Shown here piece after piece: positions 14,569 to 64,000 of a stretch of DNA of 64,000 nucleotides; the first letter of the stretch is position 1; every line of letters begins with the position of its first letter. The notes under the pieces were generated by a model. That model saw only the letters and a list, made by a program, of their open reading frames with translations, did not search any database and had not been told where the DNA came from. A program made the position numbers and the translations under genes. The stretch spans positions 54,581 to 118,580 of the forward strand of contig ONLH01000007.1 in assembly GCA_900318645.1 (NCBI GenBank). Reading direction: 5' to 3'. The DNA comes from an uncultured Prevotellaceae bacterium (GTDB taxonomy: Bacteria; Bacteroidota; Bacteroidia; Bacteroidales; Muribaculaceae).

Positions 14569-14626
14569 ATCAAAAGAACCGTCCCTATTTTACGTTCATC
14601 AAAAGAACCGTCCCTATTTTACGTTC
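14569..14626. repeat. 29-bp direct tandem repeat at the 3' end of the tannase-like gene
   Basis: Two identical 29-bp units abut at 14569-14597 and 14598-14626, each holding AGAACCGTCCCTATTTTACG. The second unit carries the last codons and stop of the minus-strand gene; the first is a duplicate just past it. Confidence 0.9.
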
Positions 14627-16149
14627 ACGATGGTGTTGATCCAGTTGAAGAGTTCGTCGAGGGCATAGTCGCCGCTGTGAGGGCGGTTCCATGCCAGCAG
14701 GAAGTTGACGTCCTTGCCTGCGTTCTGGAGCTTGAGGGCAAGGTTGATGGGGACAGGGAATGAGGTGTCGCGGTCGCGGGCTCCGTGGCGGATATACCAA
14801 TGTGGCGCCACGTCGGTCACACCGTCGCCGATGAAATTCATCGGGTTCAACAGGCGCACGTTTTCACGGATGTCATCGGTTAAGTTGAAGCCGGTCTTGG
14901 CGGCGCTGTAGTCTGTAAAGTTGACTTTACTGCCGCTCTTGTCACCAAACTCCTCGTTCTCGCCCGAGGCACGGCCGCCTGCTACGCCCTGAGTGTCAAA
15001 GGCGGGAGCGGTCTTCAACGGCTGTGTGGAAACGACGTAATTGAGATAGGTCGCCATATCCAAGTCGATGATGTAATCACCCGGTTTGTTGCCACCACGG
15101 CCGCCGCGTTGCATCATGGGCGGCATCTGACTGCCTCCCTGACGTACGCCGCCATTGATGGGAGGCATTCCACCCATTTCCTCCTTGCTGAACTTGAAGC
15201 CGAGGCTATCGGGGATGTCGGCGCCGGCATTCTTGGCAATTTGTGCCGCACGGATGATTTCACGCTTGATGTAATCCAGGTAATTGTCGGCAGTGAGTAG
15301 CGTGCCATCGGGCGTGTGCAGGTTCAGGCTTGCCAGATAGGCAGGGAACTGCGCCTTCAATTCATTGCTCACAGCGAGCACATCGGCATCGCCCTGCTGA
15401 CGGCTGTCGGTCCCGTTATAAAGCCACTCATAGGCCATGTCGGCATGGTCCAAGTCGATAATCGGGCAATAGCACACCGAGGCAAACACGTCGTCGCGCT
15501 GCTGGGCAGCACCCATGGCACGAAGCATTGGCTCATAGGCGGGATTGTTGCCTGTGGCGCCCATCAGACTTGACATCGCTCCACCGGCACTGGTGCCGTC
15601 GGTGATGATCTTTTCAGCGTCGCCGAGCATCACGTCGTCAAACTGACGCAGGTAACGGATGGCGGCTTTCAGGTCCAGGATGGCAGCAGGAGCGCGGCCC
15701 GTATAGATGGTCTGTCCCTTTTTGATGCCAGCCTTCTTGTCGGTTTTGGTGGCGACTACTGTCGAGTTGCGACCACGGCTGCCGGGAATGGCTACCACAT
15801 AGCCCTCACGCAAGGCTCTGCCTGTGGCATCGCTGGCCTTGGGCTGCTGGGCTGGTGCCGCCATATATCCACCCACATAGGTACGCAACAGTATCGGGGT
15901 CTGCTGCGTCGCTCCGTCAGGAACATACACGTTGATGGTCTGATAGGCGGAGTCTTCCACGTTGGTCACAAAGAACATGCCCTCATAGGCCGTGTAGTTC
16001 ACCTCTACCCCATCTGGCATCGACAAGGTCCTCGTCTGTCCGATTGACGGGTCAAACTTCAGTTGCGGTTGCGGTTTCACCGCCTTGGTCTTAGCGCCAG
16101 CACCAGCCACCACGGCAAGCGCCAGCATCCATGTCAATATCCTTTTCAT
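14614..16149 (-). CDS. Secreted subtype B tannase-like alpha/beta hydrolase
   Basis: 511 aa with a signal peptide (MKRILTWMLALAVVAGAGA). The nucleophile is Ser187 in TDGTSAGGAMSSLMGATGNN; the acid is in ARDRDTSF (Asp459 or 461) and the base is His491 in RPHSGDYALDELFNWI. The segment CYCPIIDLDHADMAYEWLYNG matches the substrate-lid region of Lactobacillus/Staphylococcus subtype B tannases. Such enzymes cleave galloyl esters of plant tannins and release gallate. An insertion rich in Gly, Met and Pro (about residues 325-355, MGGMPPINGGVRQGG...) lies in the lid and looks flexible. Homology is good; galloyl specificity is inferred. Own promoter in a palindromic region at 16156-16184. Confidence 0.8.
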   Translation of the reverse strand: MKRILTWMLALAVVAGAGAKTKAVKPQPQLKFDPSIGQTRTLSMPDGVEVNYTAYEGMFFVTNVEDSAYQTINVYVPDGATQQTPILLRTYVGGYMAAPAQQPKASDATGRALREGYVVAIPGSRGRNSTVVATKTDKKAGIKKGQTIYTGRAPAAILDLKAAIRYLRQFDDVMLGDAEKIITDGTSAGGAMSSLMGATGNNPAYEPMLRAMGAAQQRDDVFASVCYCPIIDLDHADMAYEWLYNGTDSRQQGDADVLAVSNELKAQFPAYLASLNLHTPDGTLLTADNYLDYIKREIIRAAQIAKNAGADIPDSLGFKFSKEEMGGMPPINGGVRQGGSQMPPMMQRGGRGGNKPGDYIIDLDMATYLNYVVSTQPLKTAPAFDTQGVAGGRASGENEEFGDKSGSKVNFTDYSAAKTGFNLTDDIRENVRLLNPMNFIGDGVTDVAPHWYIRHGARDRDTSFPVPINLALKLQNAGKDVNFLLAWNRPHSGDYALDELFNWINTIVNVK

Positions 16150-16319: not shown

Positions 16320-17165
16320 CTATCCGTAGTTTTCAATCAGGTACTTCACAAACTGCGGGTCTCCGAAGTTGATGGTACCCGTGTCGTGCTGGTTCAGCTT
16401 GGCAATTCGGGCCATATCGTCGACGCTCAGTGTAAAGTCGAAGATGTCAAAGTTCTGGGTCATGCGTTCCTTGTGGGTTGACTTGGGAATGGCGACAATG
16501 CCTCGCTGTGTGAGCCAGCGGAGGGCTACTTGAGCAGCGCTCTTATTGTACTTGGCACCTATTGCTGCCAGTTCCTCGCTCTTGACGATACCGTCAACAC
16601 CCTGTCCTCCGAGTGGTCCCCATGCCATCATTCGGGTACCGAACTCGGCATGAATCGGCTCAATGCCCTGCTGCTGGATGAGCGTGTTGCACTGCAGCTG
16701 GTTGATCATCGGCTTGACATCTACATAGTGGACAAAGTCAAAGAAACGGCCCGCCTGGAAGTTGCTCACGCCGATAGCGCGCACCTTGCCGGCACGATAA
16801 GCCTTCTCCATGGCTCGCCACGAGCCGAATACGTCACCGTAGGCCTGATGGATAAGCAGCAGATCAATGTACTCTGTCTGTAGCTTACGCAGGCTCTCGT
16901 CGATACTCTTCATTGCTTTTTCCTCACCAGCATTGGCAATCCACACTTTAGTCACAAGGAACAAATCCTCTCGCTTGATGCCACTCTTGCGCCAGGCATT
17001 ACCCACGCCTTCTTCGTTCTGGTAGGCCTGTGCCGTATCAATCAAGCGATAGCCCACGCTCAGCGCATCACTTACGCATCGTTCACACTCGTCAGGGCTC
17101 ACCAGAAACACGCCGTAGCCCAGGGTCGGCATCTCAACGCCGTTACTTAACTTGATGTATTCCAT
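16320..17165 (-). CDS. Aldo/keto reductase, cytosolic (last gene of redox operon)
   Basis: 281 aa. Complete AKR tetrad: Asp43 and Tyr48 (LIDTAQAYQNEEG), Lys73 (VTKVW), His106 (LIHQAYG); cofactor motif AIPKSTHKERM. It is close to the AKR at 53820 (shared openings LSNGVEMP/LNNGVEMP and SIDESLRKLQT) and more distant from that at 9290. It is the promoter-distal gene of a minus-strand set: acetyltransferase, SDR, lipoprotein flavodoxin, AKR. A spacer of TCAG/AGTT repeats separates it from the flavodoxin gene. AKR plus flavodoxin plus SDR beside an AraC regulator suggests inducible carbonyl or aldehyde reduction. Confidence 0.92.
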   Translation of the reverse strand: MEYIKLSNGVEMPTLGYGVFLVSPDECERCVSDALSVGYRLIDTAQAYQNEEGVGNAWRKSGIKREDLFLVTKVWIANAGEEKAMKSIDESLRKLQTEYIDLLLIHQAYGDVFGSWRAMEKAYRAGKVRAIGVSNFQAGRFFDFVHYVDVKPMINQLQCNTLIQQQGIEPIHAEFGTRMMAWGPLGGQGVDGIVKSEELAAIGAKYNKSAAQVALRWLTQRGIVAIPKSTHKERMTQNFDIFDFTLSVDDMARIAKLNQHDTGTINFGDPQFVKYLIENYG

Positions 17166-17170: not shown

Positions 17171-17236
17171 TCAGTTGTCAGTTTTCAGTTGTCAGTTTTT
17201 AGTTGTCAGTTGTCAGCTTTCAGTTGTCAGTTTTCA
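17171..17236. repeat. TCAGTTgTCAGTTtTCAG short repeat array
   Basis: Seven imperfect units of TCAGTTGTCAG/TCAGTTTTCAG follow one another between two operon genes. The stop codon of the flavodoxin gene (17234-17236) lies inside the last unit. Related arrays are at 42855-42950 and, shorter, at 31951-31980. Confidence 0.85.
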
Positions 17237-17845
17237 GAGCTTTAAGCCTTTCAGCCATTTTTCTACCTTTGACTTGCCGGAACGCACCTCGTGTCCGTAG
17301 ATACTGAAGCCTCTGGTAACGTTGGCACCAGGGAAGGCGGCTTTCACGTCCTCCACGCAGTTGGCGAGCCCGCTGCCCTCATGGGTAGTGAAGGGGATGA
17401 CGGTCTTGCCTTGCAAGTCATCACCATGCTTCTTGAAGAAGGTGAACATCACTTGTGGGTAAGTGCCCCACCACACGGGACCACCGATGAAAACGGTGTC
17501 ATACTGGCTCATATCCACGTCGCCCTCATACTCTGGCAGTTCGCCATTGTTGGCTTCTTCCTGTGCGAGCTTGATGAGCGGGTTATAGGCCATGCCGTCA
17601 TACTTGTGCGTCACGATCTCAAACTGGTCGGCACCTGTCATTTCGCTGATGTAGTCAGCAACAATCTTGGTGTTGCCCACTTCAATGTTTCCTACCGCGT
17701 AGTTGTCTCCCGCATGCGAGAAGAACACTACCAATGATTTCCCTGTTGTTTCCATAACTTTTTCGTTTTCTTGTTTTGCCTGGCCGCTGCATGCCGTCGG
17801 GATGAGCAATGCCAGTGTGGCCATAATAATGTTCTTGATGTTCAT
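17234..17845 (-). CDS. Flavodoxin with lipoprotein signal
   Basis: 203 aa. The N-terminus is a lipoprotein signal (MNIKNIIMATLALLIPTACSGQ; Cys19), followed by about 15 linker residues and a flavodoxin fold: SLVVFFSHAGDNYAVG (phosphate loop region), TVFIGGPVWWGTYPQVMFTF (aromatic loop) and HEGSGLANCVEDV. Flavodoxins are normally cytosolic one- or two-electron carriers with FMN; here export to the periplasm or outer membrane is predicted. A Met (METTGKSLVVFF) sits exactly before the first beta strand, so an internal start could also give a cytosolic form. Same operon as AKR and SDR. A paralogue is at 61878. Confidence 0.88.
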   Translation of the reverse strand: MNIKNIIMATLALLIPTACSGQAKQENEKVMETTGKSLVVFFSHAGDNYAVGNIEVGNTKIVADYISEMTGADQFEIVTHKYDGMAYNPLIKLAQEEANNGELPEYEGDVDMSQYDTVFIGGPVWWGTYPQVMFTFFKKHGDDLQGKTVIPFTTHEGSGLANCVEDVKAAFPGANVTRGFSIYGHEVRSGKSKVEKWLKGLKL

Positions 17846-21253: not shown

Positions 21254-22345
21254 ATGAATTTCAAGTATGTACTCACTGCACTGCTCATCGCTCTCCTGAT
21301 GGCCAGCTGCACCACAACATCACAACAAAACAACGACAACATGGAACAGAAACCCGTAGCCGGCGTTGACGGCAACAAGTATGTCCCCTATGACGAACGC
21401 ACCGGCGACGAGGCGGTGGTCTATTTCACACGCAACCTGAGTGCCGAGGGACTGATCATGGCCTATGAGCAGGTCAACAAGATGATCGAGGGCCGCGTGG
21501 CAGTGAAGCTGCACACGGGCGAGCAACATGGACCCAACATCATCCCGAGTGCTTGGGTCAAGGCGCTGATGGAGAAGGACCTAAAGGGTGCCACCATCAT
21601 CGAGACCAACACCTACTATGAGGGCGACCGTTACACCACCGAACTGCACCGCAAGACGCTGGAGGTGAACGGCTGGACCTTCTGCCCCGTGGATATCCTT
21701 GACGAGGAAGACACCGTGACGCTGCCTGTCGTGGGCGGCAAGTGGTTTGACAAGATGTCGGTGGGCAGCCACCTAAAGAACTATGACTCTATGGTGGCGC
21801 TGACCCATTTCAAGGGCCATACCCAGGGCGGCTTTGGCGGCTCTAACAAGAACATCGGCATCGGTTGTGCCGACGGACGCATCGGCAAGGCATGGATTCA
21901 CACCACTCCGGGCCAGGACGACCAGTGGGACATCAAGGAGGAGGAATTCATGGAACGCATGACCGAATCCACCAAGGCGAGCATCGACTTCTTCGGCAAG
22001 CATGTGACCTACGTCAATGTGATGCGTAACATGTCGGTGTCCTGTGACTGCGAGGGTCTGGAAGCCGAACCAGTAGTCACGCCCAACGTCGGCATCCTGT
22101 CCTCGACCGACCTGCTCGCTATCGACCAGGCCTGCATCGATATTATCTACGCCATGACCGAAGAGGAACACCACGACATGCTGGAGCGCATCGAGAGCCG
22201 CCACGGCCTGCGCCAGCTGTCTTACATGAAGGAACTGGGCATGGGCCACGACCGCTATATCCTCATTGACCTGGATAACGGCGGCAAACGCATTACCGCC
22301 AAGGAAGCGGCTAAAGGACTGAAACCCTTCGTGCAAGAGAAGTAA
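21254..22345 (+). CDS. DUF362-domain lipoprotein
   Basis: 363 aa from ATG 21254, placed after promoter P2; the frame extends upstream but through the promoters. Lipoprotein signal MNFKYVLTALLIALLMASCTT (Cys19). The body matches DUF362: VAVKLHTGEQHGPNIIPS, IIETNTYYEGDRYTTELHR, LTHFKGHTQGGFGGSNKNIGIGCA, SCDCEG and the HDMLERIESRHGLRQLSY C-terminal part. In many anaerobes DUF362 is fused to or next to 2[4Fe-4S] ferredoxins; here no cluster-binding Cys set is seen. Function is unknown, but the exported redox context is notable. Met25 (NMEQKP) separates signal and domain. Confidence 0.87.
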   Translation: MNFKYVLTALLIALLMASCTTTSQQNNDNMEQKPVAGVDGNKYVPYDERTGDEAVVYFTRNLSAEGLIMAYEQVNKMIEGRVAVKLHTGEQHGPNIIPSAWVKALMEKDLKGATIIETNTYYEGDRYTTELHRKTLEVNGWTFCPVDILDEEDTVTLPVVGGKWFDKMSVGSHLKNYDSMVALTHFKGHTQGGFGGSNKNIGIGCADGRIGKAWIHTTPGQDDQWDIKEEEFMERMTESTKASIDFFGKHVTYVNVMRNMSVSCDCEGLEAEPVVTPNVGILSSTDLLAIDQACIDIIYAMTEEEHHDMLERIESRHGLRQLSYMKELGMGHDRYILIDLDNGGKRITAKEAAKGLKPFVQEK

Positions 22346-27541: not shown

Positions 27542-28711
27542 ATGAAAATCCATCATCTGTTTGCGGGTGCCTGCATCATGGCTTTACTACTCATGATTGG
27601 TCAGCCCGCCACAGCACAAGACAAAAGACAAAATGCAATCGGTATGGAAGAAATCGTTCTTGACAACATCCTGGCTCGAACCAGCATCCGCTCCTATCAG
27701 GACCGCCCAGTGGAGCAAGACAAAATCGAGAAACTGCTGCACGCCGGCATGGCTGCCCCGTCGGCCGTTGATAAGCGCCCGTGGCACTTTATTGTGGTGA
27801 CAGACAAGCAAGTGCTTCAAGGTCTGGCCGAGGCCAATCCTAACGCAGGCATGGCCGCCCGTGCACCGCTGGCCATTGTCGTGTGTGGCGACAAGACTAA
27901 GGCGTTGACACGTGTTCCCGACTATTGGGTTCAGGATGTCGCCGCTGCCACCGAGAACATCCTGCTTGCTGCCCATGGCATGGGCCTAGGGGCTGTCTGG
28001 ACCGGCACTTATCCTGTTGCCGACCGCGTCGAGAAAGTAGCTAAGGTTGTCAATTTGCCCGAGCACATCATCCCCTTCTGCACCATCGTCATCGGCTATC
28101 CCGAGAAACCGCAAGCGCCCAAGGACAAGTGGAACGAGGGCAACATCAGTTACAACACCTATGGTGGTGCGAAACCCGCCATCAAGGATCCTGAGCCCAC
28201 CTTCCATGAGTTTGACGTGAATGAAGACTTCCTGCTCAATCCCTTCAACTATTTCTCCCAGCTGGGCGGGATGCTCGTGTGTGCCGGCAACCGTGACAAG
28301 AGCAATGCCATGACCATCGGTTGGGGAGCGCTGGGCACCCTGTGGGGACATGGCACCAACACAGTCACCGTATATGTCGCCGAGAAACGGTACACCCGTG
28401 AATTCATGGAGAATAGCGACTATTTCACCATCATGACCTTCAAGGACCAGAATGTGCTGCAATACATGGGAACCAAGAGCGGACGTGATGGCGACAAAGC
28501 CGCGGCACTAGGTCTGCACGTGGCCTATACCGAGAACGGCACCCCCTACTATGAGGAAGCCGAGTGCGTCATCGAGTGCAAAAAGATGTACACCCAGGAG
28601 TTTGACCCCGCCAACTTCAATGACGAAGTGCCGCGCAAATTCTACGAAAGATTCAGTGCCGGCTACCACACCCTTTACATCGGCAAGGTAGTCAAGGCCA
28701 TGAAGAAATAA
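27542..28711 (+). CDS. Exported nitroreductase-flavin reductase fusion
   Basis: 389 aa. Signal peptide MKIHHLFAGACIMALLLMIGQPATAQ. Residues about 35-205 are a nitroreductase-family FMN domain (ARTSIRSYQDRPVEQDKIEKLL, AAPSAVDKRPWHFIVV, GLGAVWTGTYP, IVIGYPEKPQAP). Residues about 220-389 are an FMN-binding split-barrel flavin-reductase domain (LLNPFNYFSQLGGMLVCAG, NAMTIGWGALGTLWG, CVIECKKMY). Both domains bind FMN and use NAD(P)H in cytosolic relatives, so an exported fusion needs another electron source. A Met (GMEEIVLDN, residue 35) lies right at the start of the first domain. It ends a plus-strand run with the two MFS genes and has a strong terminator. Confidence 0.9.
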   Translation: MKIHHLFAGACIMALLLMIGQPATAQDKRQNAIGMEEIVLDNILARTSIRSYQDRPVEQDKIEKLLHAGMAAPSAVDKRPWHFIVVTDKQVLQGLAEANPNAGMAARAPLAIVVCGDKTKALTRVPDYWVQDVAAATENILLAAHGMGLGAVWTGTYPVADRVEKVAKVVNLPEHIIPFCTIVIGYPEKPQAPKDKWNEGNISYNTYGGAKPAIKDPEPTFHEFDVNEDFLLNPFNYFSQLGGMLVCAGNRDKSNAMTIGWGALGTLWGHGTNTVTVYVAEKRYTREFMENSDYFTIMTFKDQNVLQYMGTKSGRDGDKAAALGLHVAYTENGTPYYEEAECVIECKKMYTQEFDPANFNDEVPRKFYERFSAGYHTLYIGKVVKAMKK

Positions 28712-42950: not shown

Positions 42951-42953
42951 AAA

Positions 42954-52150: not shown

Positions 52151-52151
52151 A

Positions 52152-53255: not shown

Positions 53256-53278
53256 AAGCACTGTCCTATTTTCTTTTG

Positions 53279-53819: not shown

Positions 53820-54671
53820 ATGAAAACAATTCAACTGAACAATGGTGTAGAGATGCCCGCACTGGGTTTTGGCGTATTCAGACTCTCACCAGCCGAATGT
53901 GAGCGCTGCGTGCTGGACGCCATCGAGATTGGCTACCGCAGCATCGACACGGCCCAAGATTATAAGAATGAAGAAGGCGTGGGTGCAGCTATCAAGAAGT
54001 GCGGCATACCACGCGACCAACTGTTCATCACCACCAAGGTGTGGATCAGCAACGCCGGCGAGGAACGTGCGGCACTAAGCATCGATGAGTCGCTACGCAA
54101 ACTGCAGACCGACTATGTTGACCTGCTGCTGGTGCATGAGCCCTATGGTGACTGCTATGGCACCTATCGAGCTATGGAAAAAGCCTATCAGGCTGGCAAA
54201 GCAAGGGCCATCGGACTGAGCAACTTCTACAACGTGCGTTTTATCGACATCGCCGAGCACATGGACGTCAAGCCCGCCGTGCTACAGCTCGAGACTCATG
54301 TGTTTGCCCAGCAAAAGGCCATGCGTACACTCATGAAAGACTATGGCACCCGGCTCATGGCATGGGGACCGTTGGCACAAGGCCGACACGGCTTCTTTGA
54401 AAACGAGATACTAAAGGCCATCGGAGCAAAATATGGCAAAACCAACGCCCAAGTAGCCCTCAACTGGTTAGTGTCGCAAGACATCATGCCGGTGCCCAAG
54501 ACATCGCACAAGGAGCGAATGGCAAGCAATCTGGACATCTTTGACTTTGAACTCTCCAGCGAGGACATGGAGGCCATTAGCCGCTTAGATCAAGGCGAAA
54601 AGCTCATCAACGACTTCAACAACGACACCGACCTGGCACAAATGTTCCTGGGCCTCAAGCCGTGGAGCTAA
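53820..54671 (+). CDS. Aldo/keto reductase, cytosolic
   Basis: 283 aa. Tetrad complete: Asp43 and Tyr48 (SIDTAQDYKNEEG), Lys73 (TTKVW), His106 (LVHEPYG). Cofactor-phosphate motif VPKTSHKERM. Closest in the window to the AKR at 16320 (shared LSPxECERCV, SNAGEE-like and SIDESLRKLQT segments). Monocistronic with its own promoter, followed by mobile-element debris. Substrate not predictable. Confidence 0.92.
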   Translation: MKTIQLNNGVEMPALGFGVFRLSPAECERCVLDAIEIGYRSIDTAQDYKNEEGVGAAIKKCGIPRDQLFITTKVWISNAGEERAALSIDESLRKLQTDYVDLLLVHEPYGDCYGTYRAMEKAYQAGKARAIGLSNFYNVRFIDIAEHMDVKPAVLQLETHVFAQQKAMRTLMKDYGTRLMAWGPLAQGRHGFFENEILKAIGAKYGKTNAQVALNWLVSQDIMPVPKTSHKERMASNLDIFDFELSSEDMEAISRLDQGEKLINDFNNDTDLAQMFLGLKPWS

Positions 54672-54768: not shown

Positions 54769-54838
54769 AATTAGAAATCAAATCCTATTTATAGAAGCAA
54801 TCGTTGATCTAGAAGCTATAACAACGAATGATAATAAT

Positions 54839-55048: not shown

Positions 55049-55461
55049 TGTTCAGCCATTCCGCACGTGAACAACTTGAACATTTGAACAAGCTGAACAC
55101 GCCCCACCCTACCTATGAACATGCTATCGTCGCGCGCGGATACCTGGTAATTTTGGGCCGGAAGAACCCTTATATGTAAGAGAAACACATGCCCCCAAGA
55201 GGACCGCTGGCTTAACAATGAGCACGCTGGCGGCATGGGGGCAAAGACAATATATAAACGTAACACGATGGAGAAGGACCTGCTGGCGAGGAGTTAGCAT
55301 GGACAACCAACCATCACGGACGATGACCCATTGGAGTGACACCGTAACCTCAAGACGTTACACCGTTACTTTCATTGGCGAGTCCGATTGAAGCAGTGAT
55401 ATCAGTGCTGGAGAAGCATTGACGTCGCTACTTCTTTTTTTTCGGTTCCACGGGTGGGAAT
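55049..55461. other. Gene-free stretch after the integrase remnant
   Basis: About 410 bp without a convincing gene. It holds a short open frame (55218-55391, plus, 57 codons, MSTLAAWGQRQYINVTRWRR...) of odd composition rich in Arg, Trp and Thr, and an inverted repeat TGCCCCCA/TGGGGGCA (near 55190-55243). Both are probably debris of the element that left the integrase tail. Confidence 0.4.
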
Positions 55462-55492
55462 TTTGTTTTTTTGTTGAAAATGAGTATATTTG
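55462..55492 (+). promoter_or_regulatory. Consensus promoter abutting the second AraC gene
   Basis: TTTG (55462-55465), exactly 19 nt, TATATTTG (55485-55492), then CGCCCG and ATG at 55499. Transcription should start at or next to the start codon. Confidence 0.75.
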
Positions 55493-55498
55493 CGCCCG

Positions 55499-56299
55499 AT
55501 GAATGGAACGGAACACATTATCGTTGAGGATCGGTTGACTGGTGTCGGCAATCATGCCGGCTATCTGTGCCATGCCTATTGCCATCGGGGGGCATGCTCG
55601 TTTGACTTCAATAATGGGTCTTACAGCATGGAGGCTGGGGATTGCCTGGTGGTACGGCGTACTGACTTGATGTCTAATGTCGTGCAAAGTGATGACTTTG
55701 TCGTTGACGTGGTCTATGTGACACCCGAGTTTATCGCTATCTCGACTCCGAATAGCAATTATGGCACCAAAGGCCAGTTGGCACTGTTCAACAACCCCAT
55801 CATGCGCCTCACGCCTGAGCAGCAGCGTGTGTGTGCCCTGGATTTTGACTACATCAAGCGACGGTTGGCACTGACTACCCACAACTTTCACCGTGACGCG
55901 ATGATCAATGCCATCCAGTGCATGATTATCGACTTGTTTGACTTTCATGTGGAGTTGCATGGCGGAGAGACGGTTTCGGCCCAGTATGCCCAATTGATGG
56001 AGGGTTTTCTGGAAATGCTGGAGCGTGGCGATTACCGTCAGAACCGCGAGGTCGCCTACTATGCCGACAAGTTGTGCGTCACGTCCAAGTACCTGTCCGA
56101 AGTGTCCAAGAAGGTGAGTGGCTTTCCCGCTAACTACTGGATTATCCGTTACACATCGCTTGACATCAGCCGCCTGTTGCGCGACAAGACGCTGACACTT
56201 AACGAGATTGCTGACATGTTCGGTTTCTCCTCGCCGTCCTATTTGAGCCGCTACGTCCAGAAGTATCTGGGCACAACGCCCACCACCTTCCGCGAATAA
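55499..56299 (+). CDS. AraC-family transcriptional regulator (operon 2)
   Basis: 266 aa from ATG 55499 (MNGTEHIIVEDRLTG); a TTG three codons earlier lies in the -7 box. N-terminal cupin-like sensor (FDFNNGSYSMEAGDCLVVRR). C-terminal double helix-turn-helix: EVAYYADKLCVTSKYLSEVS and LTLNEIADMFGFSSPSYLSRYV, then the signature YLGTTPTTFRE. It is the same design as the AraC gene at 19395. It lies upstream of and codirectional with the exported redox/esterase genes and is their likely regulator, though a hairpin follows it. Confidence 0.92.
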   Translation: MNGTEHIIVEDRLTGVGNHAGYLCHAYCHRGACSFDFNNGSYSMEAGDCLVVRRTDLMSNVVQSDDFVVDVVYVTPEFIAISTPNSNYGTKGQLALFNNPIMRLTPEQQRVCALDFDYIKRRLALTTHNFHRDAMINAIQCMIIDLFDFHVELHGGETVSAQYAQLMEGFLEMLERGDYRQNREVAYYADKLCVTSKYLSEVSKKVSGFPANYWIIRYTSLDISRLLRDKTLTLNEIADMFGFSSPSYLSRYVQKYLGTTPTTFRE

Positions 56300-56340
56300 A
56301 ACCGCAGCCACACAAGAGAAACGGAATTATTGAAATAAAT

Positions 56341-56375
56341 ACCCGAAATCTGTTTAACGACGGTTTCGGGTTTTC
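56341..56375 (+). terminator. Terminator after the AraC gene
   Basis: ACCCGAAA and TTTCGGGT with a 15-nt loop, followed by TTTCG. The next genes therefore probably have their own promoter within 56376-56479, which I could not identify. Confidence 0.55.
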
Positions 56376-56479
56376 GTTGTTATTTTGCAGCATGGAATCA
56401 TGTTTCAGATTAATCTATTAATGAATCCATCGCCATCTTTAACTAACCAAAATATCAACGGCAAGAAACAGATAATTCA

Positions 56480-57382
56480 ATGAACAAGAACCGCAAAATG
56501 AACCGACGTGATGCGCTCAAGGCCATGGGATGTATTGTGGCTACGACCACTTTGTCATCCACAGGCTTGACCTCGCTGGCCGCAACCACGGGAGACGATA
56601 TGGAAAAGAGAAAGAAACGACTCGTGTTTTACTTCACCGCGACAGGCAACAGCTTGTATGCGGCAAGGGCCTTCTCGGCAGAGCCAATCAGTATTCCACA
56701 AGCGTTGAAAGACGGTGCACTGGACTATGAGGCCGACGAGATCGGCATTGTCTTTCCAGACTTTGCGGCCGCGGCGCCGCTCATGGTTCGGGAATTTGTG
56801 AACAAGGCGCGGCTCAAGGCAAGGTACATCTTTTCGATTATCACCTATGGCAACTATGCCGCCAACGTTGCCGACTGGTGGAATGAGTACTGCCTGGAGC
56901 AAGGACTCACCGTCCACTATATCAACACGCTGCTCATGGTTGACAATTACCTGCCGGTGTTTGACATGAATGAGCAGACGCGCATTGACAAACACATTCC
57001 CGAGGCCCTCGCTCAACTGGTCGCCGACGTGGAGAGCCAGCGGCAATACATCAGTCATGTCGAGATTGATGACCAGATGCGCGGATGGCTCAAGCGGTTG
57101 CAGGAGAACCACTCCCCGATGGAGGCCGAGCGCCTATTGAGGCTGAATGTCGAAGCCTGCATTGCCTGTGGCACCTGTGCAGCCGTCTGTCCTCACGGCA
57201 ACTTCAGCATGACGGATAGCCGTGCCGAGTTCTCGGGCCCTTGCGAGTATTGCCTTGCCTGCGTCCATGCCTGTCCGCCGAAAGCACTGACACTGGAGCG
57301 TGAACGCAACCCGATGGCCCGCTACCGTAACGAGAACGTGTCGCTGGTCGATATCAAGAAGGCCAATAACCAAAACCGATAA
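56480..57382 (+). CDS. Exported EFR1-type flavodoxin/2[4Fe-4S] ferredoxin protein with Tat-like signal
   Basis: 300 aa. The N-terminus MNKNRKMNRRDALKAMGCIV has the twin-arginine pattern RRDxL followed by a hydrophobic, Ala/Thr-rich stretch to about residue 36. A flavodoxin-like domain follows (LVFYFTATGNSLYAARAF with the FMN phosphate loop; IGIVFPDFAAAAPLMVREFV). The C-terminal part binds two [4Fe-4S] clusters: CIACGTCAAVCPHGNF and CEYCLACVHACPPKAL. EFR1-family proteins are normally cytosolic electron carriers; Tat export would suit a pre-folded iron-sulfur protein. Met41 (MEKRKKRLVFYF) precedes the first strand. It starts the exported redox block 13 bp before the esterase gene. Confidence 0.88.
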   Translation: MNKNRKMNRRDALKAMGCIVATTTLSSTGLTSLAATTGDDMEKRKKRLVFYFTATGNSLYAARAFSAEPISIPQALKDGALDYEADEIGIVFPDFAAAAPLMVREFVNKARLKARYIFSIITYGNYAANVADWWNEYCLEQGLTVHYINTLLMVDNYLPVFDMNEQTRIDKHIPEALAQLVADVESQRQYISHVEIDDQMRGWLKRLQENHSPMEAERLLRLNVEACIACGTCAAVCPHGNFSMTDSRAEFSGPCEYCLACVHACPPKALTLERERNPMARYRNENVSLVDIKKANNQNR

Positions 57383-57395
57383 AACTTAAGGTGAA

Positions 57396-59381
57396 ATGAA
57401 GAGAGCGTTTATTAACATGACGATGCTGATGGCGGTTACTGCCTGTTCGACCGACGGCGTTGAGGCCCTGGCCGAGACTGGCGGCACTCCTTCAGATTTT
57501 GAGATACAATACACCATGCCTGTCCCGTCAGACTTTTTCCAGGCAGCAGAGCATCAAGGAACGATAGAACTTGTAGAGTACGACTCCAAGGACTACACTT
57601 CAAGCAGCCAGCCTGTGACCCACAAACCCGCCTATGTATATGTGCCCTATGGCTACGACCCGTCCAAGCAGTATGACATCATCTATCTGCTGCATGGCTG
57701 GACAGGCGTTGCCCAAGAATATTTCCTGGGGCGAAATGGCAACAGCAAAACCCCGATGGTGCATCTGTTCGACCACTTGATCGAGAGCGGCCAGTGTCGG
57801 CCTTTCATCGCCGTGTCACCGACGTGGGACAAGGACAACCAGGCCAAGGATTGGGGCGAGAGCACTCGTGAGGCTGCTGTGTTCTCTCAGGAATATGTCA
57901 ATGACCTGATTCCTGCCGTCGAGAGCCGTTACAGCACCTATTGTACTGATTTCACCCCCGAGGGCATCCTCGCCTCGCGCGAGCATCGTGCCATCGGTGG
58001 CTTCTCGCTGGGCGCCATCACCACATGGTATGTCTTTGAGCAGGCATTTCCCTATAGCCGCATGTACCTGCCCATGAGTGGTGATAACTGGAGCCAGGGC
58101 ATGTATGGCGGTCAATACTATCCCGAGGAAACGGCTCAGTTCCTGGCCGACCTGGTGAATGCCTCACCCTATGGCAACAACTTCTACGTCTGGTACGCCG
58201 TCGGGACCAATGACGTGCGCCGCCCCCAGACCCACAACCAGGCACTCGCCATGGCTGCCTTGAGCGACACATTCAATGCCAGCAATTTTTCTTATCACAT
58301 GAAGGAGGGCGGCCAGCACGACTTCAATGCCGTGTGGGAGTTCTGTTACAATGCCCTGCCGTTTTTCTTCCCGGCAAACGAGCAGCAGGCTTGTTACACT
58401 CGTGAGACCCTGATCGAAGATGTTATCAACGACCCTGCCTTTAAGGACTATGGCCGTCTCATCTTTCCCGTGAACACGGGCTACTGGAGTGGCACCACCC
58501 TCGAGGATCTTGACCTGGCGTGGTACAACTACATCGACCCCGACAAGACCGTGGAGGTGTGCAACTACCTGCGCTCTCATGCCGATGGCTGCTTTCTCGA
58601 CATCTATACCGAGGCCGAGAAACAGGCCAATCCCGAGTTGCGCAATACCGGTCTGTTCTTTTTCAAGGGTGAGAATGGCGCTCCCTTTGCCATCTGCAAC
58701 GCTGGCGGCGGCTTCTCCTATGTGGGAGCCATGCATGACAGTTACCCTCATGCACTGGAGTTGTCCAAGAAAGGGTATAATGCCTTTGCGCTGATTTATC
58801 GTCCTGGCGATGCCTATGAGGACCTGGCACGGGCCATCACATTCATCCGTGACCATGCCGATGAACTCGGGGTGAATCCTGACGGCTACTCGCTGTGGGG
58901 CGGCTCGGCTGGTGCCCGCATGGCAGCGACGCTGGGCAATAGCGGCTACCTTCACCAGTTGACGGGACGCACCGATGTCCCTCAAGCCTCTGCCGTTATC
59001 ATGCAATACACAGGATATACCGCCGTGAGCCAGGATGATGCGCCCACCTATGCCTGCTGCGGTACCAGCGATGGCATTGCATCGTGGCGGACTATGCAAA
59101 GTCGCCTTGAAAGCCTTGCCGCACTGGGCATTCCCACTGAATTCCACGCCTATAGCGGCCTGCCTCACGGTTTCGGTCTGGGTACCGGCACAGTAGCCGA
59201 GGGCTGGATTGACGATGCGGTGGCCTTTTGGCAAGCGCAATCTGGCTCTTCAGGGATTAACCAGGTCATGGCCGACTCCAGACCGGACGATTGCCGTATC
59301 TATTCGATTGACGGTCGCCGCCTGGCTACCATTCAGCCAGGCATCAACATCGTCAACGGTAAAAAGATCCTGGCCCAGTGA
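57396..59381 (+). CDS. Two-domain esterase lipoprotein (CE1/EstD-like plus BD-FAE-like)
   Basis: 661 aa. Lipoprotein signal ending LMAVTACSTDG (Cys17). Domain 1 (about 35-325) is a CE1-type feruloyl/acetyl xylan esterase: KPAYVYVPYGYDPSKQYDI, LLHGWTG, nucleophile GGFSLGAITTW, His in EGGQHDF. Domain 2 (about 345-620) is an HSL/BD-FAE-like esterase: FAICNAGGGFSYVG as oxyanion loop, WGGSAGARMAATLG with Ser, and GLPHGFGLGTG with His. The end IYSIDGRRLATIQPGINIVN, GKKILAQ is a type IX-like C-terminal tail, shared with the phosphatase at 724. Such fusions release ferulate and acetate from xylan; specificity is inferred. A second copy starts at 63404. Confidence 0.88.
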   Translation: MKRAFINMTMLMAVTACSTDGVEALAETGGTPSDFEIQYTMPVPSDFFQAAEHQGTIELVEYDSKDYTSSSQPVTHKPAYVYVPYGYDPSKQYDIIYLLHGWTGVAQEYFLGRNGNSKTPMVHLFDHLIESGQCRPFIAVSPTWDKDNQAKDWGESTREAAVFSQEYVNDLIPAVESRYSTYCTDFTPEGILASREHRAIGGFSLGAITTWYVFEQAFPYSRMYLPMSGDNWSQGMYGGQYYPEETAQFLADLVNASPYGNNFYVWYAVGTNDVRRPQTHNQALAMAALSDTFNASNFSYHMKEGGQHDFNAVWEFCYNALPFFFPANEQQACYTRETLIEDVINDPAFKDYGRLIFPVNTGYWSGTTLEDLDLAWYNYIDPDKTVEVCNYLRSHADGCFLDIYTEAEKQANPELRNTGLFFFKGENGAPFAICNAGGGFSYVGAMHDSYPHALELSKKGYNAFALIYRPGDAYEDLARAITFIRDHADELGVNPDGYSLWGGSAGARMAATLGNSGYLHQLTGRTDVPQASAVIMQYTGYTAVSQDDAPTYACCGTSDGIASWRTMQSRLESLAALGIPTEFHAYSGLPHGFGLGTGTVAEGWIDDAVAFWQAQSGSSGINQVMADSRPDDCRIYSIDGRRLATIQPGINIVNGKKILAQ

Positions 59382-59454
59382 TAAAAATTCTTTTTAACAG
59401 AATAGCCCAAAACACAACACGCTGCATTAATAATCAACTAAAACCAAATCAAGT

Positions 59455-60714
59455 ATGAAGACAAGATTTTTCATGATGCTGGCAGCGGTGCTGCTGAGTA
59501 TCGGTGCTATGGCACAGAGCGAGAACAATTACGCCTTCGGTAATTTTGACCACGTGGTGACTCAACCAGCGCCAGGCGGTAACACGGCTGACGGCGGTCC
59601 TCAGGCAGTCTCAAACATCAGATCGGTTGCCGGTGTCCCGCTGGTTGGGCTCAATAACGGCGTGATGATGCCGCGTTTCGGTCTCGGTACCCAGGTGCAG
59701 AGCATGGAAAATGCGAGCATGCGCCAGCAACTCAACGAGACGGTGCGCGGAATGGTCATCTCAGCCCTGCAATCGGGCTACCGTCACTTGGACGATGCGA
59801 TGTTCTACTATAATGAGCGCGGTACTGGATGGGGTATCAAGGAAAGCGGCATACCCCGCGAGCAGATTTGGGTGACGAGTAAGATCTCGGGCAATCTGGC
59901 CGATGCGCAAAATGCGTTTAACGGCATGCTCCAGAGGCTGCAAGTCGATTACATTGATCTCGTGTATATCCACCATCCCGCTGGCACCCTGCAAGACATT
60001 CTTGCCTGCTGGCGTGTAATGGAGGCGGAATACAAGGCTGGCCGCATCCGCGCACTTGGTATCAGCAACTTTGACAATCGCATGGAAGCGTTCAACTACA
60101 TCATGGACAATGCCGAGATCAAGCCGCAAATGGCACAGATAGAGTGTCATCCGCTTGCCCAGAGAACAGATGCCAGGGAACTGTATGCCAACAATTATGA
60201 CATTCAGGTGGAATGCTGGTACCCGTTGAACCACAACCGCACTGACCCCAACAACACGACCATCCAGCAGATTGCCCAGGCCCATGGCCGAACGGTCTAT
60301 CAGATTATCCTGCGCTGGCACATGCAAGAAGGTCTCTGCCCCGTTCCTGGCTCTACCAATGCTGCCCACATCGCCGAGAACATCAACATCTTTGACTTTG
60401 AACTGACCGACGAGGAGATGGCAGCAATCAGAGCCATCGACAGGGGCGATGCAGGCAGGTCGTTCAATCTCCAGTATGGAAACTGGGGATTCGGTAATTT
60501 CCAGGATTATAACTATAATCACACATTCACTCCAGCCTACCTCACGGGTGATGTGAACTTTGATGGCGAAATCAATATCGGTGATGTGACAGGGCTGATT
60601 GATTTTTTGCTCAGCGATGTTAGAATGGCACCAGTACCAGCCGATGTGAACGAGGATGGGGAAACAAACATCGGTGATGTGACAGCATTAATTGACATTT
60701 TGCTCAGATCCTGA
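59455..60714 (+). CDS. Secreted aldo/keto reductase with dockerin-type calcium repeats
   Basis: 419 aa. Signal peptide MKTRFFMMLAAVLLSIGAMAQ. After a 40-residue linker, residues about 60-345 form a complete AKR barrel with its tetrad intact: Asp113 and Tyr118 (HLDDAMFYYNERG), Lys143 (VTSKI), His173 (YIHHPAG), ALGISNF and the cofactor end VPGSTNAAHIAENI, in which the usual K-x-x-x-x-R phosphate clamp (IPKSTHKERM) is lost. Residues about 365-419 are two dockerin-like EF-hand loops, GDVNFDGEINIGDVTGLIDF and DVNEDGETNIGDVTALIDIL, as in the C10 protease. An NAD(P)H-type enzyme outside the cytoplasm is unusual; either another electron donor or a non-redox role is implied. Confidence 0.9.
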   Translation: MKTRFFMMLAAVLLSIGAMAQSENNYAFGNFDHVVTQPAPGGNTADGGPQAVSNIRSVAGVPLVGLNNGVMMPRFGLGTQVQSMENASMRQQLNETVRGMVISALQSGYRHLDDAMFYYNERGTGWGIKESGIPREQIWVTSKISGNLADAQNAFNGMLQRLQVDYIDLVYIHHPAGTLQDILACWRVMEAEYKAGRIRALGISNFDNRMEAFNYIMDNAEIKPQMAQIECHPLAQRTDARELYANNYDIQVECWYPLNHNRTDPNNTTIQQIAQAHGRTVYQIILRWHMQEGLCPVPGSTNAAHIAENINIFDFELTDEEMAAIRAIDRGDAGRSFNLQYGNWGFGNFQDYNYNHTFTPAYLTGDVNFDGEINIGDVTGLIDFLLSDVRMAPVPADVNEDGETNIGDVTALIDILLRS

Positions 60715-60769
60715 TAAAATGTTGATCGCCATAACGAAGTCAAACTTTATTATAATATTTAATTTGAAC

Positions 60770-61870
60770 ATGAAAGATTTCCAGTTAAGAAATGACACAA
60801 AATTGTTGCTGCTCAATGACCCCGCGCCCACGCTCACGTCTTTGATGTCTGGCAAGAAGGTCTTGTTTGTCTTTGGCAATGGCTCTGTGTTTGAAAACGG
60901 TTGCTACGATGATGTATTCAAGTCGGCCAAAGTTGCGAATGCCGAATTCCATGAATTGGCTGAGGCTTCGCGCGAACTTGCCGATATTGAGCGGGGCATT
61001 GCCCTGTGCAAGGAACACGGCATCAACCTTGTCATCGGTGCCGGCGGAGCCAGCATCATGGATTGTGCCAAGTTGATAGCCTTCGGCACAAGTCACGAGG
61101 ATGACTTGTGGGAGTATGTGAAGAACAGGAAGGGCCCTCACGGTGAAGAGAAATTACCGCTGGTGTTGATGCCTACCTATCCGTCGAGCGGATCGGAGTA
61201 TGGCCTTGGTGCAGTTTCGGCCGACAAACGGACCGGGGATTTCGGTACCGCCTATGGCATTGGCGCTGATGTCGCTATTCTGGTGCCCAAGTATGCACTC
61301 ACCCTTAGTAGCGAGATGACGGCCTATACCGGGCTGGTGACACTGGTTCAGCTGTCGGCAGCCACGCTGGGTGATAAGAACCCTGTTTCCTATGACATCG
61401 GCATCTCTGTTATTAAGAATGTACTGAGGGCCATCACGACTTTGCAGAAAGAACCGAATGACCTGGATGCGAGAGGTATCATTCTCTACGGTGCTTCCAT
61501 TTCTACGTCAAGTCGCTTGGGACTGGGCAAAGAAGCGAACTATGCCTACGAGATCTACGAACTGGAGTTTATTCCTGAAGTTCTGTTCGGTGTGCCTTAT
61601 CGCCGCAGCCTGACGACGATTTTCCCCCGTTTCCTCACCGCGATGGCACCTTATCATCAGGAGGACATCGGGCAATTCCTCAAGGATGCCTTCGGGCTGG
61701 AGGGCGAGATGAAGGATTGTGAAAAACGATTGGTCGAGTTGTTCTCGTCGTTTGGGGTTCCCATGCATTTTGAAGGCGAGGCAGGCAGTGCTCAGATTGC
61801 CGACATCGACATCACCACTTCATTGTCAATTGATGAGGTGACTACTGTGATTAACAACTGCTTAAAATGA
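60770..61870 (+). CDS. Iron-alcohol-dehydrogenase-like protein lacking the metal-binding histidines
   Basis: 366 aa from ATG 60770 (MKDFQLRNDTKLLLLND, the BDH/YqhD opening); the frame runs 26 codons upstream into the 3' side of the AKR gap but that part is not family-like. Nucleotide-binding motifs are kept: GAGGASIMDCAKLIAFG (GGGSxxDxAK) and PTYPSSGSEYG. The metal site is not: where relatives have D-x-x-A-H this has EMTAYTGLVTLVQ, and where they have the H-x-x-x-H and T-H-G set it has YAYEIYELEFIPEVLFG. So it probably binds NAD(P)H but no iron. No signal peptide; cytosolic. It is 7 bp upstream of the flavodoxin gene. Confidence 0.85.
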   Translation: MKDFQLRNDTKLLLLNDPAPTLTSLMSGKKVLFVFGNGSVFENGCYDDVFKSAKVANAEFHELAEASRELADIERGIALCKEHGINLVIGAGGASIMDCAKLIAFGTSHEDDLWEYVKNRKGPHGEEKLPLVLMPTYPSSGSEYGLGAVSADKRTGDFGTAYGIGADVAILVPKYALTLSSEMTAYTGLVTLVQLSAATLGDKNPVSYDIGISVIKNVLRAITTLQKEPNDLDARGIILYGASISTSSRLGLGKEANYAYEIYELEFIPEVLFGVPYRRSLTTIFPRFLTAMAPYHQEDIGQFLKDAFGLEGEMKDCEKRLVELFSSFGVPMHFEGEAGSAQIADIDITTSLSIDEVTTVINNCLK

Positions 61871-61877
61871 AATTGAT

Positions 61878-62471
61878 ATGAACAGATTCATCACAACATT
61901 ATTCTTGCTGTTTGTTGCTACATTATGCCTTAATGCATGCACGACAACCGATCAGGGAGAGAAACAAACAATTGACATGAAAGGTAAGAAAGTCCTGGTT
62001 GCCTACTTCTCATGGAGCGGCAACACACGCGAGGTGGCTCAGTACATCGCCCTGAAGACGGGTGCCGACGAGTTTGAAATCATCCGCGAAAAGGCATATC
62101 CCACGGAATATAACGCTTGCGCCGAGGATGCCAAGGCCGAGAAAGAAGCTGGCGAGCGTCCTGCCATCAAAGGAAAGGTTGAAAACATGGCACAGTATGA
62201 CGTGGTGTTCGTCTGCGTCCCCGTATGGTGGTACACGGCTCCGATGCCCGTCTTCACATTCTTAGAGCAGTACGACCTGAGTGGCAAGACGGTCATCCCG
62301 TTCTGCACGGCTTACAGTGGCCCGTCATCGACACTGGACGACATCGTGAGTGCTACACCTCAGAGCAACCATCTGGACGGCATCTGCATCGTGACCAAGG
62401 AGATGGGCGGCAAGGACATGGACAAGAAACATGGCGAGATTGACAAGTGGCTCACCGAAATAGGACTCTAA
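61878..62471 (+). CDS. Flavodoxin with lipoprotein signal (paralogue of 17234)
   Basis: 197 aa. Lipoprotein signal MNRFITTLFLLFVATLCLNACTT (Cys21). The flavodoxin fold starts at MKGKKVLVAYFSWSGNTREVA (Met35), with the FMN phosphate loop SWSGNTRE, and continues VVFVCVPVWWYTAPMPVFTFLEQYD and FCTAYSGPSSTLDD. Mature part about 160 aa, as usual for long-type flavodoxins. Met35 could serve as an internal start for a cytosolic form. Gaps of 7 and 4 bp to its neighbours place it in one transcript with the ADH-like and cupin genes. Confidence 0.9.
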   Translation: MNRFITTLFLLFVATLCLNACTTTDQGEKQTIDMKGKKVLVAYFSWSGNTREVAQYIALKTGADEFEIIREKAYPTEYNACAEDAKAEKEAGERPAIKGKVENMAQYDVVFVCVPVWWYTAPMPVFTFLEQYDLSGKTVIPFCTAYSGPSSTLDDIVSATPQSNHLDGICIVTKEMGGKDMDKKHGEIDKWLTEIGL

Positions 62472-62475
62472 GCGT

Positions 62476-63399
62476 ATGAAGAAACTGTTTGCAATCATCA
62501 TGAGCGGTTTGCTGCTGGCTTCGTGTGCCGAGAATAAGCAAAGTATAGTGGGTGTTACACGGGAGCAGATTTCGTTCCCCATCGGTGAGCGGATAGATAA
62601 CCCCTCATTTACAGGCGAGGCTTATCTGAAGCCACTGATTAGCGTAGATTCTGTGTTCAATTTTCCACAAACCAATGTCGTGACGTTCGGCCCTGCGGCA
62701 CACAGCAGTTGGCATCGTCACGGTGGTATGGTTGTGCTGGTGACTGACGGTGTGGGACTCTATCAGGAGGAGGGCAAGCCTGCACAGATTCTGCGTCGCG
62801 GTGACGTATTGCAGATTCCTGCAGGAGTGCGCCATTGGCACGGAGCCACAAAGGACAACTGGTTCTCTCAGGTAGTGATTTATGATTCGGCTTGGAAACC
62901 TGCAGAAACATACAATGACAGCGACAATTCCATTTCGGATGATTATTACAATGGATTAGAGATGGTGGAGTATGCGCACCAGACCACTACTGACAGCCTG
63001 ATATTTGCAGCACCAGACTCCACGCTATCACTGCCGACATTCAACGGGCCGATTCGTCTGGCAAATACAGTGGATGCTCCAAATGTGGCAGGCGCTCCAG
63101 GACTTCACTACGTCGTGTTCGAGCCTGGTGTCATTAATGCCTGGCACACCCATCCCGGAGGCCAGATACTGATAGCAACCGACGGCATCGGATACCACCA
63201 GATTGAAGGTCAGCCTGTAGAGGTATTGCATCCAGGCGATGTCGTGATGTGTCCGCCCAATGTGAAGCATTGGCACGGTGCCTCCCCCAATTCGCGCTTC
63301 GCCCACCTGGCTGTAGGTACCAATCCAGATCGTCCAGCCGTAGTGTGGACTGACGAGATGCTGAGTAAAGAGGAATACGAGCGACTTCCAAAGGAATAG
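62476..63399 (+). CDS. Double-cupin lipoprotein
   Basis: 307 aa. Lipoprotein signal [21 protein letters not shown] (Cys17). Two cupin domains are arranged head to tail: [20 protein letters not shown] with GVRHWHGAT, and [20 protein letters not shown] with NVKHWHGAS. Each has the metal-binding HxH plus a second HWH, so both metal sites look complete although the usual Glu is absent. In related clusters such cupins sit beside carboxymuconolactone decarboxylase-like or AKR/flavodoxin genes. Role unknown; possibly a metal-dependent isomerase or dioxygenase acting on the same exported pathway. Confidence 0.88.
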
Positions 63400-63403
63400 G
63401 AAT

Positions 63404-64000
63404 ATGAGAAAATCAATGACTACAATGATGATGCTGATGACTTCGATGTTTGGTTGTGCAGCCTGTTCATCGGACGGTGCTTCAAAAGAGGCAGCAGACG
63501 TTTCGGAAAATGACAACGTGCCGACAGATTTCCAGATACAGTACACCACACCCGTGCCGTCGGAGTTCTTTCAGGCTGCAACGCAGCAGGGAACGATTGA
63601 GTTGGTTGAGTATGATTCAAAGGACTACACGCAAAGCAGCCGTCCCGCAACGAGGAAACCTGCCTACGTGTATGTGCCATACGGCTATGACCCGTCGAAG
63701 CAGTACGACGTTATCTACCTGCTACACGGCTGGACAGGAGTGGCCGAGGAGTATTTCCTGGGGCGCAGCGGTAGCAGCCGCACAGGGTTGGTACACATCT
63801 TCGACAACCTGATTCAGCGTGGACTCTGCCGTCCGTTCATCGCCGTATCGCCCACATGGGACAAGGACAACCTATCAAAAGGATGGGGAGAGAGCACCCA
63901 AGAGGCTGCCGTATTCTCGCAGGAATATGTAAACGACCTCATCCCCGCTGTGGAGACGCACTACTCCACCTATCTGACAGAGGCGACACCCGAAGGCATC
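63404..64000 (+). CDS. Second CE1-like esterase lipoprotein (partial, runs off right edge)
   Basis: 199 codons are open from ATG 63404 to the window end. Lipoprotein signal (MRKSMTTMMMLMTSMFGCAACSS). From about residue 38 it closely follows domain 1 of the protein at 57396: DFQIQYTTPVPSEFFQAA, QGTIELVEYDSKDYT, KPAYVYVPYGYDPSKQYD, LLHGWTGVAEEYFLG, FIAVSPTWDKDN and AAVFSQEYVNDLIPAVE, most residues identical. The catalytic elbow is beyond the edge. It starts 4 bp after the cupin gene, so the exported redox set is bracketed by two copies of this esterase. Confidence 0.9.
   Translation, partial: MRKSMTTMMMLMTSMFGCAACSSDGASKEAADVSENDNVPTDFQIQYTTPVPSEFFQAATQQGTIELVEYDSKDYTQSSRPATRKPAYVYVPYGYDPSKQYDVIYLLHGWTGVAEEYFLGRSGSSRTGLVHIFDNLIQRGLCRPFIAVSPTWDKDNLSKGWGESTQEAAVFSQEYVNDLIPAVETHYSTYLTEATPEGI

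Follow-up and report, generated by a model that had tools for sequence, protein, structure and literature searches.

Gene run at the end of the window

We analysed a stretch of 64,000 nucleotides (hereafter the window), which spans positions 54581-118580 of contig 41 in a draft genome of 3.6 Mb (75 contigs, ~91% complete) from a relative of gut and rumen Bacteroidales. From 55490 to 64000, all on the forward strand, it encodes an AraC-type regulator, an EFR1 ferredoxin, an esterase, an aldo-keto reductase (AKR), an iron-containing alcohol dehydrogenase (Fe-ADH), a flavodoxin, a double cupin and a second esterase (Table 1). Most of these proteins carry export signals and very probably belong to an exported and conserved module. 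We tentatively read the run as an operon linked to AraC that serves redox chemistry outside the cytoplasm and is centred on an exported AKR, with a cofactor pocket that would be NADH-type and not NADPH-type.

Successive gaps from the AraC gene onwards measure 180, 13, 73, 55, 7, 4 and 4 bases, leaving seven co-directional genes downstream of the regulator that are spaced by 4-73 bp and may well be transcribed together. Homologues of the AraC protein were found again in clusters of AKR and flavodoxin genes elsewhere. The first esterase has homologues of 67-74% identity in four of the loci described below (L163, L165, L180 and L181), and the double cupin scored 191.8 bits against NF049940, a model of (R)-mandelonitrile lyase cupins (cut-off 140), which makes it a putative member of that group. 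Profile searches placed the redox genes, the AraC gene and both esterases where an initial annotation, made from the sequence alone, had put them, and likewise bore out its calls of a flavodoxin at 17234, a nitroreductase/flavin reductase at 27542 and a DUF362 protein at 21254. Its list was incomplete in one respect, as the leaderless Fe-ADH in the middle of the run had been left out.

Table 1. Genes of the run and related genes elsewhere in the window.
Feature	Position	Strand	Basis
AraC-type regulator, cytosolic	55490..56299	+	PF12833, 54 bits
Tat-type EFR1 ferredoxin; flavodoxin-like half with FTATGN loop, then 2 x CxxCxxCxxxC	56480..57382	+	NF038196, 173 bits (cut-off 75)
Lipoprotein esterase; PF00756 half N-terminal, BD-FAE half C-terminal	57396..59381	+	domain matches, signal scan
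Exported AKR; tetrad kept, Gly/His at 2'-phosphate site, C-terminal Dockerin_1	59455..60714	+	PF00248, 138 bits (cut-off 24)
Fe-ADH, leaderless	60770..61870	+	PF00465, 88.6 bits; no signal; ATG start checked
Lipoprotein Flavodoxin_4 without ApbE flavinylation motif	61878..62471	+	PF12682, 109.9 bits; PDB match 3KLB
Lipoprotein double cupin	62476..63399	+	PF07883 in two stretches; PDB matches 4UXA/4BIF
Second lipoprotein esterase, open-ended	63404..64000	+	PF00756; contig and window end together
Cytosolic AKR, NADPH-type motif PKT....R	53820..54671	+	domain match, motif
Exported BD-FAE-type esterase, second cluster	14614..16149	-	domain match, signal scan
Cytosolic AKR, second cluster, motif PKS....R	16320..17165	-	domain match, motif
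Lipoprotein Flavodoxin_4, second cluster	17234..17845	-	PF12682, 77.6 bits; signal scan
DUF362 lipoprotein	21254..22345	+	PF04015, 134 bits; signal scan
Exported nitroreductase::flavin reductase	27542..28711	+	PF00881 + PF01613; signal scan

Export signals and their conservation

Export signals were sought with a home-made scan for a charged start, a hydrophobic stretch, and a lipobox or small-residue site or a twin-arginine (RR) motif. In agreement with the initial annotation, the scan marked a signal on every protein for which one had been claimed, and none on seven cytosolic neighbours (the AKRs at 53820 and 16320, the AraC protein at 55490, Fe-ADH, a hexapeptide transferase, AraC2 and PGM). 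One cytosolic SDR, at 17858, was marked falsely. The two flavodoxins and the second esterase scored as plain signal peptides, and their lipoboxes (LNAC, PTAC and CAAC) were read by eye.

Homologues were taken from the best 80 of at least 581 relatives found with an alignment of exported AKRs, kept as named loci (L numbers). Within these 80 loci, signals were present on 46/61 flavodoxin, 10/12 cupin, 6/9 EFR1, 9/27 esterase, 3/5 DUF362 and 28/129 AKR frames, and on 0/40 frames of control families (AraC 0/10, Fe-ADH 0/16, SDR 0/5, hexapeptide transferase 0/9). Chance signals are therefore unlikely, since the signals recur in homologues and are absent from the controls. All six Flavodoxin_4 frames of this genome bear a signal, and the genome encodes TatC (205 bits).

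Exported AKR and its cofactor site

The AKR of the run retains the PF00248 barrel and the Asp/Tyr/Lys/His tetrad, and the 50 PDB matches listed were all AKRs; its structure model is of middling quality (pLDDT 73.0). At the place of the NADPH-type motif PKS....R it reads PGSTNAAH, with Gly and His instead of the Lys and Arg of the 2'-phosphate site. This stretch aligned better to PDB entry 1M9H than to the wild-type entry 1A80 (48.6 vs 41.3 bits). According to its title, 1M9H is a mutant of Corynebacterium 2,5-diketogluconate reductase that carries F22Y and K232G and is altered at Arg 238, and the Gly/His pair of the window AKR is identical to that of this mutant, which we take to have been engineered to accept NADH. 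Titles cited in PMC3565945 agree with such acceptance, and PMC4580623 gives the changes in 1M9H as K232G and R238H. The window AKR may be a natural counterpart to this laboratory-made change of the cofactor pocket.

Among 93 AKR domains (80% identity limit), the Arg was kept in 0/18 rows labelled exported vs 39/75 labelled cytosolic; these counts give a raw Fisher p of 2e-5, which disregards kinship and which we do not count as support. In a tree of these domains, most exported AKRs fall into one branch of 15 rows with a support of 99, of which 13 were labelled exported and two mislabelled, and the remaining exported rows fall into two more places. Some labels depended on the scan. When GTG and TTG starts were allowed, the Arg-bearing L206 and L014 were flagged as exported, which we take to be false calls; an ATG-first scan left both unflagged, and L014 and L198_p_9105 were set to cytosolic by hand. 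Conversely, L183_p_4120, L184_p_5505, L198_p_10838 and L250 stand as cytosolic in the tree despite visible leaders, and the cytosolic label of L136_p_15753, whose alignment starts at residue 2, is probably wrong. Mending these labels would raise the number of Arg-less exported rows.

The closest exported AKRs, with 74-79% identity over the whole protein (L162-L164), come from a rumen metagenome-assembled genome (MAG), Segatella maculosa and Geofilum rhodophaeum, and the best match among 119 genomes of the family, its own excepted, reached 48%. This difference suggests that the window AKR was acquired by horizontal transfer. Its dockerin tail (60547-60702) recurs in at least 11 other places of the genome and is also found on an LRR/C10-peptidase protein at 4469-7921.

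EFR1 ferredoxin

The score of the EFR1 protein lies well above the family cut-off (Table 1), and its two cysteine motifs are at 227 and 255. In an alignment of nine rows, T55, G56 and N57 of the FMN loop and all eight Cys were invariant. The structure model is of middling quality (pLDDT 72.9) and appears to resemble flavodoxin folds weakly (TM about 0.3 by query length).

The leader contains the motif NRRDALK, which is of the twin-arginine type and makes the protein a predicted Tat substrate. Close relatives are rare, being found in 7/295 genomes of the order at E 1e-30, own genome included; the leader region aligned in five of these and not in two. A leader was present on 6/6 EFR1s in loci with an exported AKR and on 0/3 in other loci (Fisher p 0.012, a generous value since the rows are not independent and L167 and L168 are near copies). 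The leader-bearing EFR1 gene lies directly upstream of the exported AKR gene in L167, L168 and L263 (near copies from one lineage), directly downstream of it in L166 and 1.5 kb upstream in L169. Four further leader-bearing EFR1s comprised that of L263, beside an exported AKR, those of L260 and L261, beside flavodoxins, and that of L262, beside an AraC gene only.

Recurrence in other bacteria

The gene-neighbourhood survey that the initial annotation had proposed showed that related exported sets recur in other genera, with parts swapped. We compared the 26 loci that contain an exported AKR with the other 54. Cupin (8/26 vs 3/54), AraC (7/26 vs 1/54) and signal-bearing flavodoxin (14/26 vs 16/54) lean to exported AKRs; the counts were 11/26 vs 10/54 for esterase, 5/26 vs 9/54 for Fe-ADH and 2/26 vs 3/54 for DUF362.

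A Prevotella MAG (L180) is nearly syntenic, with AraC, exported AKR, lipoprotein flavodoxin, cupin, esterase, a second lipoprotein flavodoxin, a Tat-type EFR1 and DUF362. Its cupin is 95% identical to that of the window, its flavodoxin 76% and its EFR1 61%, but its AKR only 46%, so that parts of the cassette seem to have been exchanged separately. In Parabacteroides bouchesdurhonensis (L166), a flavodoxin, an unlabelled frame whose N-terminus is hydrophobic, an exported AKR and an EFR1 with a QR leader are followed by an EamA transporter, a further EFR1 whose leader has RR, a membrane polyferredoxin and a Tat-type AKR that ends in a 4Fe-4S part.

Fusions join the same families. A lipoprotein that combines flavodoxin and AKR occurs in six genomes, and flavodoxin::BD-FAE fusions in L122 and, with a shortened flavodoxin part, in L166; others are BD-FAE::AKR (L183), DUF4440::AKR (L181), cupin::CMD (L124) and Tat-type AKR::4Fe-4S. 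On contig 49 of the genome that holds the window we also observed a signal-bearing flavodoxin::cyclophilin-like::dockerin fusion (L143:6735-7865), with flavodoxin, DUF362 and Fe-ADH genes as neighbours.

Flavin, membrane context and a second exported AKR system

Contig 38 of this genome (L250:4955-8149) holds, as a gene pair apart from the window operon, a Tat-type AKR with a C-terminal ferredoxin and an adjoining membrane polyferredoxin. The latter is one fused protein with two Fer4_5 stretches, a NapH-like part and a NapG-like second half; it reached 76.4 of 213 bits for TIGR02163 and 71.9 of 179 for TIGR00397, below both cut-offs, so that only a resemblance is meant. The AKR::ferredoxin was matched in 83/119 genomes of the family (two partially) and 50/295 of the order at E 1e-60. 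In the best-scoring loci, which are not a random draw, the polyferredoxin lay within 1.5 kb on either side in 15/15 and 19/19 cases, and the scan called a Tat-type leader in 14/15 and 17/19, the fifteenth being seen by eye. No other finding hints as strongly as this pair that Fe-S proteins can feed an AKR outside the cytoplasm.

The initial annotation had advised a search for ApbE and for Rnf or Nqr links. ApbE, NqrC and NqrF are encoded in the genome; RnfB stayed below the cut-off there, and Rnf was rejected as a donor. On contig 12, nqrF and a lipoprotein flavodoxin gene converge tail to tail (L144:1337-3392). The flavinylation motif D..[ST][GS]A[ST] was absent from all six flavodoxin frames of this genome, which led us to reject a covalent flavin on the window flavodoxin; it was present in 9/103 signal-bearing flavodoxins gathered, among them the L180 flavodoxin directly upstream of the Tat-type EFR1. 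The statement in the initial annotation that flavodoxins are cytosolic in known pathways was too strong, as extracytosolic Flavodoxin_4 proteins have been published that bear signs of flavinylation by ApbE and are presumed to serve as electron carriers beyond the cytosol (PMC11334425). A protein resembling ApbE is also known to release FMN in the periplasm (PMC4767422).

Other genes of the window

A second cluster (14614-20213) comprises an exported BD-FAE esterase, a cytosolic AKR, a lipoprotein flavodoxin, an SDR, a hexapeptide transferase and an AraC gene, and a fourth AKR gene of the window, with an NADPH-type motif, is found at 9290-10123. Homologues of the DUF362 lipoprotein sit in clusters with flavodoxin, AKR, cupin or EFR1 (L143, L159, L179 and L180). 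A polysaccharide utilization locus with SusC/SusD, GH16 and a GH5::GH3 protein occupies 36144-47473. No SusC/SusD pair, the mark of such a locus, was found among the genes of 53820-64000, and a link of the redox run to a xylan utilization locus was rejected as none lies within the cluster.

Proposed working and alternatives

Since normally intracellular redox enzymes carry export labels here and similar sets recur in other bacteria, the data point to carbonyl-reducing chemistry outside the cytoplasm. Electrons would leave the membrane through a quinol- or Nqr-linked carrier and be taken up by EFR1, exported by Tat in a folded state with its FMN and 2[4Fe-4S]. EFR1 may pass them to the lipoprotein flavodoxin, whose electrons would return the NAD bound by the exported AKR to its reduced form. 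The AKR could then reduce a carbonyl compound that the two lipoprotein esterases release or make accessible, with the cupin assisting in substrate handling, and the product would be imported for final conversion by the NADPH-type AKR of the cytosol and the Fe-ADH. The conserved signals, the fusions, the changed cofactor site and the AKR::ferredoxin/polyferredoxin pair make an extracytoplasmic supply of electrons to the AKR plausible; a direct chain is a plausible form of it that we hold with some doubt. More tentative is the wider proposal that Bacteroidales and some other bacteria possess extracytoplasmic AKR carbonyl reductases that are independent of soluble NADPH and take their electrons from exported Fe-S/FMN carriers, which a NapH/NapG-like polyferredoxin would supply across the membrane, in a respiratory-type route with bound NAD(H) as the relay or with none.

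Several findings weigh against this reading. The signal calls come from our own home-made scan and not from SignalP. Flavodoxin as such is not enriched beside exported AKRs (14/26 vs 26/54 loci), EFR1 is present in only 5/26 of their loci (3/54 of the others), and the complete gene set is uncommon. L260-L262 have a leader-bearing EFR1 and no AKR in the stretch fetched. The six flavodoxin::AKR fusions form two groups, with 93-96% and 73-74% identity to the first, and being so similar they count as roughly a single event. A membrane donor was not found within the window cluster, and the failure of RnfB to reach its cut-off counts here too. Finally, the tree half around the exported branch holds 30 Arg-less rows labelled cytosolic (27 after label mending), from which it follows that Arg loss predates export. 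We therefore rejected Arg loss as a consequence of export, and an independent-pairs test of the two showed no signal. As the loss came first, the exported AKRs probably derive from a stock that was not built for NADPH.

A further point concerns translation starts. An in-frame ATG follows the signal start in 6/9 EFR1 and 51/102 flavodoxin genes, and in two of these six EFR1s it lies just before the domain; in the window, a Met directly precedes the domain in EFR1 and in both flavodoxins. Leaders might then be read only in part, with internal starts yielding working EFR1 and flavodoxin inside the cell, and leaderless relatives of EFR1 do exist (L152, L157, L194 and L196). We regard this as quite improbable: the other 51 exported flavodoxins and three EFR1s have no such ATG, in four more EFR1s it falls within the leader itself, and the RR pair is retained in 8/9 distinct EFR1 leaders.

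A clear objection comes from adjacent gene pairs. All 18 non-redundant pairs of an Arg-bearing AKR and a flavodoxin (15 with Lys and Arg, 3 with Gly and Arg) combine a leaderless AKR with a signal-bearing flavodoxin, so that neighbourhood alone is no proof of direct electron transfer. In Arg-less pairs, the flavodoxin was exported in 8/9 cases with an exported AKR and 9/17 with a leaderless one; the expected co-relocation of the two proteins was thus not significant (p 0.098), which counts against the chain. The 18 pairs and the L260-L262 loci also speak against the interpretation in the initial annotation, whose order ferredoxin, flavodoxin, reductase is conjectural. That interpretation stays a hypothesis, in partial support of which are the conserved signals, TatC, ApbE, NqrC and NqrF, the fusions and the Tat-type EFR1s in loci with exported AKRs in other Bacteroidales.

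The same pairs would fit an aldehyde or electrophile response operon, in which the outer proteins act singly and no electrons pass between exported parts: flavodoxin and nitroreductase would reduce quinones, the esterases cleave esters, and the cytosolic AKR and Fe-ADH reduce aldehydes that enter. AraC, AKR, Fe-ADH, SDR and flavodoxin do recur together, and RND efflux genes lie near the run (49037-53312). Such an operon leaves unexplained the leaders on both AKR and EFR1 and the leader-bearing flavodoxin::AKR and AKR::4Fe-4S fusions. The models of its known members also scored far below cut-off (AKRs 231 and 187 of 425 bits for PRK11565, the DkgA model; Fe-ADH 68 of 645 for PRK15138, which we take to be YqhD), and we consider this explanation unlikely, although it deserves some weight.

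Exported NAD-dependent glycosidases and glucose-fructose oxidoreductase carry out redox-neutral chemistry, and the exported AKR could similarly hold NAD tightly and oxidise, transform and re-reduce its substrate with no need of a donor. The altered 2'-phosphate site next to an intact tetrad is compatible with this, and to our knowledge no NAD(P)H pool is to be expected outside the cytoplasm. Flavodoxin and Fe-S proteins that are fused to AKRs or encoded beside them argue for a donor, and the Sec-type leader of the window AKR probably precludes loading with NAD before export; the redox-neutral scheme is accordingly improbable in our judgement.

In current teaching, AKRs, most flavodoxins and the ferredoxins of bacteria are cytosolic and depend on the NADPH and ferredoxin of the cell. 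Should the proposed extracytoplasmic reduction hold, common gut and rumen Bacteroidales would have a reductive chemistry in their envelope that today's metabolic maps do not show, with dietary esters, phenolics or aldehydes as possible substrates. It makes testable predictions about the cofactor bound by the exported AKR and about its reductant. We found no report of an exported AKR/flavodoxin module in the literature, a weak negative as most subscription journals lay outside the coverage. Extracytosolic flavodoxins being already known, it is this variant of extracytosolic electron transfer that would be new.

Comparison with known systems

The ApbE-flavinylated Flavodoxin_4 systems share with the window an exported Flavodoxin_4 and, in this genome, ApbE; the window flavodoxins differ in lacking the flavinylation motif, and a term search of PMC11334425 returned neither 'aldo' nor 'cupin'. 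The NapG/NapH quinol dehydrogenase ferredoxins are matched by the NapH-like and NapG-like parts of the contig 38 polyferredoxin in resemblance only, since the latter is a single fused protein encoded outside the window, has an AKR as its partner and scores far below the curated cut-offs. DkgA-like 2,5-diketogluconate reductases have the barrel fold and tetrad of the window AKR, but the latter carries a signal peptide and has Gly/His for the NADPH-binding Lys/Arg. The aldehyde response of E. coli, YqhC-YqhD-DkgA, consists of an AraC protein, an Fe-ADH and an AKR. The window run likewise sets an AraC regulator beside Fe-ADH and AKR, whereas most of its members bear export signals, and flavodoxin, ferredoxin, cupin and esterases have been added.

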